This document shows, in pieces, positions 134-4,489 of a stretch of DNA of 64,000 nucleotides. Made by a program: the position numbers and the translations under genes. The stretch comes from an uncultured Rikenellaceae bacterium (GTDB taxonomy: Bacteria > Bacteroidota > Bacteroidia > Bacteroidales > Rikenellaceae), in contig CAMQVY010000003.1 in NCBI GenBank assembly GCA_947038405.1, positions 1 to 64,000 on the forward strand. Reading direction: 5' to 3'. Under the pieces are notes generated by a model that saw only the letters and a program-made list of their open reading frames with translations, ran no database searches and had not been told where the DNA came from. Numbering within the stretch: the stretch's first letter is position 1; each line of letters begins with the position of its first letter.

Positions 134-170
134 TTAGGTTGGAAACATTGCTATTTTCAACCCTAATTTT
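134..170 (+). terminator. Terminator at left edge
   Basis: TTAGGTTGGAAA pairs with TTTTCAA plus CCTAA (one bulged C) around an 8-nt loop and is followed by TTTT. It would end a gene entering from the left edge; in-frame stops lie at 53-55 and 127-129, but the gene cannot be identified from so short a tail. Its T-tract also forms the -33 box of the next promoter. Confidence 0.5.
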
Positions 171-198
171 GTCAATCCAAATTTAAGTTGTACTTTTG
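168..198 (+). promoter_or_regulatory. Bacteroidetes promoter of RNA copy 1
   Basis: TTTG at 168-171, a 19-nt spacer and TACTTTTG at 191-198 match the Bacteroidetes consensus (-33 TTTG, -7 TAnnTTTG). Transcription would start near 203-206, just before the first helix of the structured RNA. Confidence 0.65.
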
Positions 199-202
199 TT
201 GT

Positions 203-400
203 ACTCTTTATATCAACAAAGGCTGGGGAAACCTGCCTTCTAAATTAATCGGGGCGGGCATTTTTATGCTCGCACCTCTTACTATACGGTTTGGTGGTTT
301 CACCTCCCGTGTAGAGTATTAATGTACCTACTGCCTTTGTTGGTGAAATGCAACGGGTCAGGCGAAATCACCTTTTTTATTTCACTGCCCGATTGTTTAA
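203..400 (+). ncRNA. Structured RNA / leader, copy 1
   Basis: This region folds into several helices that recur in the second copy at 697-880. A 10-bp closing helix pairs 214-223 with 333-342. Hairpins lie at 254-273 (loop TTTT), 286-310 (ACGG/CCGT around GGTG/CACC) and 316-327 (GTA/TAC around TTAATG). A 3' hairpin pairs GGCGAAAT at 361-368 with ATTTC and GCC at 379-389. The 5' strand of the closing helix can instead pair locally (219-239) around GGAAA. The RNA ends just before the start codon of a small ORF, so it could be a leader, a riboswitch-like element or a free RNA. I do not recognise it as a known Rfam family. Confidence 0.6.
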
Positions 401-419
401 TCACTTTAAAACTAAGGCT

Positions 420-617
420 ATGGAGCAAAGACACAAGGTGAGGTTATCAACCTCAAGCACATTTGTTTTATAGTAAAATGAGATTAAAAGGCTCTACATC
501 TATCTTTAGCTTTTTCAGTATCGTTATCTACGTGTTCACGACTACAAGGAGCAACCATTGATCTAGCCCCTTGACAGTGATTTCAAGAAGTATTATACAG
601 AGCTACAAAAATTAAAT
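420..617 (+). pseudogene. Decayed first copy of the 104-aa ORF
   Basis: The sequence from ATG 420 is nearly identical to the intact ORF at 902-1216 but hits TAG at 471 after 17 codons. It carries further stops and loses the last third: similarity ends near 617, where a terminator follows. The promoter, structured RNA and terminator of this copy remain intact, so the locus may still make RNA although the protein is lost. Confidence 0.75.
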
Positions 618-629
618 TAATTACAATGG

Positions 630-660
630 GCTGAAAATAGAGATGTTTTCAGCTTTTTTT
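630..660 (+). terminator. Rho-independent terminator of copy 1
   Basis: GCTGAAAA and TTTTCAGC form an 8-bp stem around TAGAGATG, followed by TTTTTTT. It closes the first copy of the duplicated unit. Its T-tract runs into the TTTG that serves as the -33 box of the second copy. Confidence 0.8.
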
Positions 661-690
661 GTTAGAGTTACATATTTTTCATTACATTTG
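658..690 (+). promoter_or_regulatory. Bacteroidetes promoter of RNA copy 2
   Basis: TTTG at 658-661, a 21-nt spacer and TACATTTG at 683-690 fit the Bacteroidetes promoter pattern. Transcription would begin near 695-698, upstream of the second structured RNA and the intact ORF. Confidence 0.6.
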
Positions 691-696
691 TAGCGA

Positions 697-880
697 CTTA
701 CATATTTGCTAAAGCAGGGAAACCTGCCTAATCAAGACAGGCATATCTTTTATGCCTGATTTGCTCCATACGGTGGTTTCGCACCCCCGTGTTGGAGTGT
801 TAATGCACCCACTGCTTTAGCGAGTGTAAGTCAACGGGTCAGGCGAAATCACCTTTTTTTATTTCACTGGCCGATTGTTT
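697..880 (+). ncRNA. Structured RNA / leader, copy 2
   Basis: This is the second copy of the RNA at 203-400. A 10-bp closing helix pairs 708-717 with 812-821. A GNRA hairpin GCAGG-GAAA-CCTGC at 714-727 competes with it. Further hairpins lie at 738-758 (CAGGCAT/ATGCCTG), 770-790 and 797-808 (GTG/CAC around TTAATG). The 3' hairpin begins at GGCGAAAT (842-849). Compared with copy 1 the last small hairpin changes GTA/TAC to GTG/CAC, a compensatory change. The strand around 832-858 is almost identical in the two copies. ATG of the following ORF is at 902. Confidence 0.62.
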
Positions 881-901
881 AATCACTTAAAAAATAAGGC
901 T

Positions 902-1216
902 ATGGAGCAAAGACACAAAGTGAGGTTATCAACCTCGAGCACATTTGATTTAGAGCAAAATGAGATTAAAAGGCTCTACATCTATCTTTCACTTTTTCAG
1001 TATCGTTATCTACGTGTTCCCGACTACAAAGAGCGACCATTGATCGAGACTCTCGAAAAAGATTTTAAGAAGTATTACATTGAGTTACAACAGCAGACAG
1101 AGCGAGATCCTAATAATCATACCCTAAATCGTATTAGGGCATTTTTTGATCTACACCATAAAAAGCTCAAAGAGCTTACTGATGAATACAAGGCACAGGA
1201 TAAGGAGTCGATTTAG
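902..1216 (+). CDS. Small hypothetical protein downstream of structured RNA
   Basis: 104-aa protein, start taken at ATG 902 because the decayed copy has its ATG at the matching place (420); a TTG at 875 would add nine residues that lie inside the RNA element. The protein is charged and largely helical, with no signal peptide or membrane segment. Segments around KRLYIYLSLFQYRYLRVPDY and a Lys/Glu-rich C-terminal half suggest a small helical-bundle or nucleic-acid-binding protein. I do not recognise a family. It is the intact member of a tandem duplication and is translated directly after the structured RNA, so it may be controlled by that RNA or bind it; both are inference. No clear terminator follows. 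Confidence 0.6.
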   Translation: MEQRHKVRLSTSSTFDLEQNEIKRLYIYLSLFQYRYLRVPDYKERPLIETLEKDFKKYYIELQQQTERDPNNHTLNRIRAFFDLHHKKLKELTDEYKAQDKESI

Positions 1217-2878: not shown

Positions 2879-4489
2879 ATGTCTGAATTTAAGTATCAAG
2901 AGCCTTTCCCATTGGGAGAGGATACAACGCAATATAGACTCCTTACAAAGGATTATGTTAAGGTTGTTGAGTGCGCAGGGCGCAAAATCCTTCAAGTTGA
3001 TCCAAAAGGATTAGAACTTCTTTCAAAAGAGGCTTATGCTGACGTTTCGTTCTATTTAAGAGCGGCTCACCTTCAGAAGCTAAGCAATATTTTGAGTGAT
3101 GCTGAAGCTACGGATAACGATAAATTTGTTGCATACACTATGTTGTGCAATCAAGTGGTTGCTGCGGAGGGTGAACTTCCAACTTGTCAAGATACGGGAA
3201 CTGCGATTGCATCTTGTAAAAAAGGTGAAGATGTATACACTGGTGTTGATGATGCAGAGTACATATCTAAGGGTATTTATGAGACTTATGCTGAGCGTAA
3301 TTTACGTTACTCACAAGTTGTCCCAATATCAATGACGGATGAGAAAAATAGTGGAAATAATCTCCCTGCACAAATTGATATATACTCAAACACTGGTCGT
3401 GAGTATAAGTTTCTTTTTATGACAAAAGGTGGCGGGTCTGCAAATAAAACATTCCTATATCAACAAACAAAAGCATTATTGAACGAAGAGAGTTTAACTC
3501 AATTTGTTAAGGATAAGATTAAAGATCTTGGTACTTCAGCTTGTCCTCCATATCACTTAGCTCTTGTGATTGGTGGAACTTCGGCAGAGTCTTGTTTGGC
3601 TACTGTCAAGAAAGCTTCAGCTGGCTATTTAGACCATCTACCAACATCTGGAAATGACGGAGGTCAGGCTTTCCGTGATCTTGAGTGGGAGGCTAAGATT
3701 CTTGAAATTTGTCAAAAATGTGGCGTTGGTGCTCAATTTGGTGGAAAATATCTTGTTCACGACGTGAGAGTAATTAGACTTCCTCGTCATGCTGCATCTT
3801 GTCCAGTGGGTATCGGCGTTAGTTGTAGTGCTGATAGAAATATTAAAGGTAAGATCACTGAGGATGGTATTTTCTTAGAGCAACTTGAGAAAAATCCAGG
3901 GCGTTTTATCCCTGAAAAAGCTCCTGCAATGAGTCCTGCTGTTGAGATAGATTTAGATGAAGGTATGGACAAAGTGCTAGAGAAACTTGCGCAATATCCT
4001 ATTAAAACTAGATTAAATATTAAAGGTACATTAGTTGTTGCAAGGGATATTGCTCACGCTCGTATTAAGCAGATGTTGGACGAGGGTAAGCCAATGCCTC
4101 AATATCTGAAAGATCATCCTGTATATTATGCTGGTCCTGCAAAAACACCACAAGGAATGGCTTCTGGTAGTTTCGGACCAACGACTGCGGGACGTATGGA
4201 CTCTTATGTAGGTCTGTTCCAAAGTAATAAAGGATCTATGGTTATGGTTGCTAAAGGAAACCGTTCTCAAGAGGTTACGGATGCTTGTAAGGAGCATGGT
4301 GGTTTCTATCTTGGTTCAATCGGTGGACCTGCGGCTATTTTAGCTAGAAATAGTATTAAGTCTGTTGAAGTGCTAGATTTCCCTGAATTAGGAATGGAGG
4401 CTGTTCGTAAAATATACGTAGAGAATTTCCCTGCATTTATCATTGTTGATGATAAGGGTAATGACTTCTTCGCTGATTTCAAACACTAA
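2879..4489 (+). CDS. fumB: Class I (Fe-S) fumarate hydratase
   Basis: 536-aa iron-sulfur fumarase that interconverts fumarate and malate, in Bacteroidales part of the reductive branch to succinate. The conserved cysteine regions of the 4Fe-4S family are present: PTCQDTGTA near residue 101, [16 protein letters not shown] near 222 and [11 protein letters not shown] near 311. The C-terminal swivel domain with [12 protein letters not shown] and [13 protein letters not shown] is complete. Length matches FumA/FumB of E. coli. It forms a single-gene unit with a -7 box at 2837 and a long hairpin terminator at 4496-4559. Confidence 0.95.

Follow-up and report, generated by a model that had tools for sequence, protein, structure and literature searches.

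Introduction

The C4 RNA of phages P1 and P7 and the CI RNA of P4 are complementary to the start region of the gene that they precede. Riboswitches of the ZTP, fluoride and SAM-II types combine a conserved core with a pseudoknot and an alternative pairing that reaches the expression platform, and type III toxin-antitoxin systems of the ToxN type pair a tandem-repeat antitoxin RNA with a conserved nuclease. Synthesis of the SymE toxin is controlled by an RNA that pairs with its mRNA at the 5′ end (symER; PMC1891008). The manA and wcaG RNAs of cyanophages appear, in the relevant passages of PMC2864571, as phage-borne orphan cis-regulatory leaders with no assigned ligand or mechanism.

The leader RNA family described here bears some likeness to each of these. 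As with C4 and P4 CI, it can be carried by phages as the leader of an antirepressor gene, but it is about 190 nt long with a pseudoknot and a hairpin P4, whereas C4 is a short two-loop RNA; it is also found only in Bacteroidia, precedes many genes other than antirepressors and gives no match to RF01695. With manA and wcaG it shares structured 5′ leaders carried by phages, but hosts and genes differ, the passages on those RNAs mention no start-codon repeat of the 5′ end, and there is no Rfam match here. Three units precede SymE-domain proteins, which recalls symER, although SymR is an antisense gene on the opposite strand and the RNA here is the leader of the same transcript. A core, a pseudoknot and a potential alternative pairing to the expression platform are common to this family and the pseudoknotted riboswitches but, unlike them, it is gene-independent, hypervariable in P1 and without known ligand.

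A tandem repeat at the start of the contig

The window, the whole 64,000-nt stretch analysed, comprises positions 1-64000, i.e. the 5′ end, of a contig from an uncultured Rikenellaceae bacterium, and the units described here lie within its positions 1-1300. A direct repeat spans 236 nt at 89% identity with a spacing of 482, other blocks staying in register, and each of two units presents a TAnnTTTG promoter, an RNA and a coding stretch in that order (Table 1). The preliminary description had reported two such units, each with a 104-aa ORF and with RNAs that had diverged yet kept their helices. Repeat, promoters and RNAs are borne out, but only unit 2 is complete, its RNA occupying about 695-860. 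Unit 1 is a partial duplicate that retains most RNA helices (P1b, P4 and the pseudoknot remain by pair count) but not P1a, whose 5′ strand mismatches the 3′ strand at 345-351. Nor does it hold the 104-aa ORF: the coding stretch is cut after about 65 codons, and the frame from its ATG meets a first stop after 17. Unit 1 is bracketed by a 24-nt inverted repeat (83%), made up of the hairpin between the units and a reverse-complement partner at 140-163 just upstream.

Table 1. Features of the two units, in window coordinates
Feature	Position	Strand	Basis
Unit 1, -7 promoter element TACTTTTG	191..198	+	Sequence; TA/CA-nn-TTTG 3-5 nt upstream in 52/59 relatives
Unit 1, decayed leader RNA (without P1a; with P1b, P4, pseudoknot)	203..395	+	R1 match, 129.8 bits, E 2.9e-32; pair count
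Unit 1, pseudoknot 5′ strand GGTGGTTTC	293..301	+	Sequence; helix covaries in family
Unit 1, hairpin P4, GTAG/CTAC and GTA/TAC around TTAATG	311..331	+	Compensatory changes relative to unit 2 and family
Unit 1, pseudoknot 3′ strand GAAATCACC, then T run	364..372	+	Sequence; family covariation
Unit 1, ORF remnant, truncated and stop-ridden, aligning with residues 1-65 only	420..617	+	80% identity; 3 TAG and 1 TAA
Inter-unit terminator-like hairpin and T run	628..659	+	Fold of 600-665, -14.8 kcal/mol; arm found in repeat analysis
Unit 2, -7 promoter element TACATTTG, ending 4 nt 5′ of RNA	683..690	+	Sequence; 4-nt spacing in 47/59 relatives
Unit 2, intact leader RNA, model match	695..877	+	R1 192.2 bits, R2 180.1 bits
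P1a 5′ strand GACTTACA, pairs with 825-832	695..702	+	Helix 96.6% paired, 59 units
P1b 5′ strand GCTAAAGCAG, pairs with 812-821	708..717	+	Fold; relatives
P2 hairpin, GCAGG-GAAA-CCTGC	714..727	+	Sequence; identical hairpin in relatives
P3 variable hairpin CAGGCATA/TATGCCTG	733..763	+	Fold; P3 varies in relatives
Pseudoknot 5′ strand GGTGGTTTC, pairs with 845-853	772..780	+	Family covariation
Second pseudoknot helix, 5′ strand CCCGT	786..790	+	Pairs with ACGGG 834-838
P4 hairpin, TTAATG loop	791..812	+	Loop in 55/59 units; stem covaries
P1a 3′ strand TGTAAGTC	825..832	+	Equivalent strand also matches start-codon region in 31/76 relatives
Second pseudoknot helix, 3′ strand ACGGG	834..838	+	Pairs with CCCGT 786-790
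Pseudoknot 3′ strand GAAATCACC (845-853) and U tract (854-860)	845..860	+	At least 6 T in 10 nt in 53/59 relatives
104-aa ORF	902..1216	+	Predicted helical protein (low-confidence model), function unrecognised; three Rikenellaceae genomes

Distribution of the leader RNA family

A covariance model built on seven upstream regions (R1) matches in 9 of 200 Rikenellaceae genomes and 7 of 22 genera, most of these without the 104-aa protein. With a second model (R2) matches were obtained in 16 of 393 Bacteroidales genomes, representing 14 of the 207 genera sampled, although the weakest may be chance; in a phylum-wide sample of 395, R2 matched one genome from a different order of the same class. The R2 matches L114, L115 and L116 were set aside as chance, being weak and lacking promoter and core; two of them adjoin ABC-transporter genes. 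Two conserved-core patterns retrieved 37 IMG/VR stretches, 36 of which R2 confirms as viral-contig copies, and a third pattern yielded three more contigs that are candidates by pattern alone. The leader is also present in Bacteroides phage BS-TP3, 9 nt upstream of gp17. A Porphyromonas phage carries it too, and six further Porphyromonas phage records give BLAST matches. In Porphyromonas phage BK068098 (L165), the hypothetical protein DBA55356 (2805-3524) spans the leader RNA at 3002-3177; its start is probably mis-annotated, the real ORF beginning 3′ of the leader. In genome G002, a type I restriction-modification set (hsdR/hsdS/hsdM-like; L023, 26-5811) lies directly 5′ of an RNA-ORF unit. 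Elsewhere a tRNA gene (L021, 5469-5532; probably Cys, by eye) has 3′-end-like fragments at L021 9670-9700 and at L022 6880-6900 and 7430-7450; these adjoin RNA-ORF units, as would be left by an integrative element with a tRNA attachment site.

In the preliminary description the RNA was unrecognised, with the proviso that a known Rfam family might explain it. None does: with the Rfam 15 covariance models no family exceeded its gathering threshold in the window and 12 relatives, and the best matches in permissive scans (E 0.086 and 0.48) were both to unrelated families. The family is absent from Rfam 15 and no description of the motif was found in the literature, the candidate tables of PMC8040213 lying outside that comparison. 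That paper reports 5,183 candidate structured RNAs (3161 + 2022) from human microbiomes (gut metagenomes), some of them lying 5′ of genes or close to phage domains, and its text passages describe no such motif; the present family could possibly be listed there already as an unnamed candidate.

The genes behind the RNA are diverse. Forty-eight first downstream ORFs, when aligned, proved mutually unrelated, with a mean column identity of 8%. Bro-N/KilAC/Rha antirepressors follow the RNA at L045, L109, L113 and L148 (4 of about 50 distinct downstream ORFs) and SymE-domain, toxin-like proteins at L120, L166 and L167. The recognisable genes, four antirepressors and three SymE-type toxins, are of kinds needing tight control. 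The remainder are small proteins without recognised function, and there is no metabolic hint among the downstream genes.

Conserved structure and promoter

Across 59 distinct units, which are related by descent and whose shuffled controls carry no phylogeny correction, the seven pairs of P1a are 96.6% paired, compared with 61.8% (maximum 68.5%) after complete 3′ strands have been redistributed between units. The corresponding values for the pseudoknot helix are 95.3% and 61.2% (maximum 70.6%), with a single register in 53 of the 59. Three to six pair types are seen at each position of P1a and a sliding control gives only about 30% pairing, so that chance or shared ancestry alone is an unlikely explanation for the helices. 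P4 covaries as a stem with a bulged A and a TTAATG loop (55 of 59 units), and the second pseudoknot helix hardly varies, CCCGT/ACGGG being replaced by CCCTC/GAGGG in Porphyromonas phage L165 and by CCCGC/GCGGG in L052. The strongly conserved core reads ACCCCCGTG / TTAATG / AACGGGANAG. A local stem CTCCATATGG/CCGTGTGGAG, suggested by single-sequence folding and built into R1, was dropped, since relatives support P4 and the pseudoknot instead. In unit 2 the 3′ part of the P1b 5′ strand can alternatively close hairpin P2. No short tandem repeats were found inside the leader RNA.

A -7 element (TA/CA-nn-TTTG) lies 3-5 nt 5′ of the RNA in 52 of the 59 relatives, and the first base of the RNA is therefore very probably the transcription start. 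With this promoter upstream and an ORF shortly downstream, its start mostly 10-100 nt 3′ of the pseudoknot, the RNA is placed as a cis-regulatory leader would be. At the other end, the pseudoknot helix is mostly of 7-12 bp and at least 6 T within 10 nt follow in 53 of 59 units, as in a stem with U tract. However, some 65-70 nt, including P4 and the P1 3′ strands, separate its two strands, and a terminator reading requires a loop of that length, unlike ordinary intrinsic terminators.

Repetition of the 5′ end at the start codon

Transcript nucleotides 1-8 recur exactly downstream in 31 of 76 units, overlapping the ATG or a few nucleotides from it (for example GCATTCCAaaATG and ATGTCTAACA), whereas the 8-mers of other units do so in 0.34% of cases. 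When matches of at least 6 nt near the ATG are counted, 27 of 56 units have one, against 1.1 on average and at most 5 in the control. As a consequence of this repetition, the P1a 3′ strand is complementary both to the 5′ end and to the start region, so that one conserved strand could either close the leader or occlude the start. In six co-resident pairs, 11 of the 12 copies match their own start at 8/8 positions and none matches its neighbour's at 8/8, which implies that the three sites have changed together. In RNAfold calculations without pseudoknots the P1a-closed state is mostly preferred; if the 5′ end is kept unpaired, 10 of 15 leaders pair the start copy with the P1a 3′ strand. About 60% of units have no exact copy, including all window-type Rikenellaceae copies (G000, the window genome, G001 and G002), and in unit 2 only ACTTA remains, about 20 nt 5′ of the ATG.

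We read the leader, with a probability of roughly 60%, as a cis-acting switch for expression of a small mobile-element gene; this is the simplest reading, the main rival being a trans-acting, copy-specific RNA. A cis-regulator was among the options that the preliminary description had named. All function proposed for the RNA is deduced from sequence. Transcription would begin at or beside the first base of P1a, and the leader would fold into P1a/P1b, P2, P3, P4 and the two-part pseudoknot, followed by the U tract. The P1a 3′ strand of many phage members would in one state pair with transcript nucleotides 1-8, closing the leader and leaving the start codon free; in the other its partner would be the same 8 nt repeated at the start codon, which would thereby be occluded. 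The sequences have the potential for both pairings, between which the RNA may alternate in the cell in response to a ligand, protein or RNA as putative trigger. Attenuation by the pseudoknot and U tract is a further possibility, with termination presumed to occur at the U tract. In the window unit, where helices, pseudoknot and U tract are intact, only the pseudoknot and U-tract part could act, because the start-codon copy is absent.

Divergence between co-resident copies

Three paralogues within the window genome are 94-99% identical in the upstream flank, 100% in the RNA 3′ end and 96-98% in the tail and ORF, but only 67-74% in the P1-P2-P3 half and 57-80% in P1b3-P1a3, their helices nevertheless being kept. 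Comparison with a copy from another genome gives the opposite pattern, with 90% identity in P1-P3 and 100% in P1b3-P1a3 against 80% in the tail and ORF. The P1-P3 pattern resembles that of distinct specificity types kept apart in one genome, one of which would be shared with the other genome; alternatively, the flanks may have undergone gene conversion. That P1b and P3 outpace their flanks in divergence between co-resident copies speaks against a cis-only role, in that a purely cis-acting RNA would seem to have no need of it. Extra RNA copies with a truncated ORF also recur in unrelated elements (unit 1 of the window, L023, L105, L107, L132 and L137), a repeated retention that a cis switch does not require.

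In the phage arrays L137, L132, L105 and L107, the promoter of the next unit truncates the first ORF, an arrangement like that of the window. In genome G020, the copies L062 8-215 and L063 1501-1684 have the P1-P2-P3 half swapped for unrelated sequence and the 3′ half unchanged, and look as if recombined mid-RNA.

The divergence and the extra copies favour a regulatory RNA acting in trans, immunity- or antitoxin-like, whose leader, once released by U-tract termination or processing, would pair with the start regions of transcripts of matching specificity, in outline like the c4 RNA of P1/P7 with its antirepressor or SymR with SymE. The antirepressors and SymE toxins among the downstream genes and the copy-specific 8-mer of co-resident units point the same way. 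Against this, pairing with the 5′ end of the same RNA sequesters the P1a 3′ strand, leader and target share one transcript, which makes a cis switch simpler, and neither C4 (RF01695) nor any other Rfam family is matched; we consider action in trans rather unlikely. It is tentatively possible that the units form a set of orthogonalised, copy-specific regulators, in which many near-identical units side by side would each carry their own 8-nt address at the 5′ end and the start codon, complemented inside the RNA, and would have diversified P1 and P3, so avoiding cross-talk, possibly as trans-acting immunity or antitoxin RNAs.

The promoter-proximal position, independence of the gene behind, phage association and strongly conserved core would also suit processive antitermination of the put type, or an RNA protecting the 5′ end; the target would then be RNA polymerase or RNases and not the start codon. 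This is improbable, since it leaves the copy of nucleotides 1-8 at the start codon unexplained and what follows the RNA is usually one small gene or a few, not a long operon.

The downstream proteins

Homologues of the 104-aa protein are confined to three genomes: that of the window, with three more copies, a second of its genus and a third from a different Rikenellaceae genus. An alignment-based search of genome contigs recovered it in two uncultured Rikenellaceae MAGs only, and a single-sequence back-translation search of genome contigs gave no match. As first noted from the sequence, the protein is not recognised: Pfam, PHROGs, NCBIfam, PADLOC, PDB sequences and plasmid and phage sequences returned nothing informative. 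AlphaFold2 predicts three helices at low confidence (pLDDT 65).

The preliminary description's central idea was an RNA-protein module, possibly a toxin-antitoxin pair, considered here as one whose RNA would bind the product of the neighbouring gene. A structured RNA fixed upstream of a small ORF does hold at dozens of loci, and the constant order, short spacing and small, predicted helical protein would suit such a module. However, the covariance search, which that description had put forward as a check, showed most RNA homologues to adjoin ORFs non-homologous to the 104-aa protein, so that a single RNA architecture precedes many unrelated proteins; the window protein family is restricted to three genomes, there is no repeat-type antitoxin, and the idea now appears very unlikely. 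An RNA-guided system had also been suggested. No IscB/TnpB-type nuclease occurs among the 48 first downstream ORFs and there is no Rfam HEARO match; an IS605-type guide RNA (HEARO/omega RNA) was rejected, the adjacent nuclease being absent. A type III (ToxIN-like) system was likewise rejected, having neither a tandem-repeat antitoxin RNA nor a nuclease: the window protein family matches no ToxN/CptN/TenpN-type toxin in Pfam, NCBIfam or PADLOC.

Finally, multiple copies, tandem duplications and tRNA-associated loci might suggest a repeat that is selfish or recombinogenic and regulates nothing, its 8-nt repeats being target-site duplications. This is extremely unlikely: the 8-mer and the internal P1a 3′ strand covary, for which reason target-site duplication was rejected as the source of the 8-nt repeats, and base pairs and pseudoknot are conserved across distant phages.

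Implications

Little is known of how Bacteroidia and their phages control genes at the RNA level. The address-like start-codon arm is an unusual trait among phage-borne leader RNAs, and the address-like 8-mer renders a specific mechanism testable. A recurrent phage-borne leader would control, or travel with, antirepressors, SymE-type toxins and many orphan small genes and would thus mark phage control genes that have no recognisable domains.
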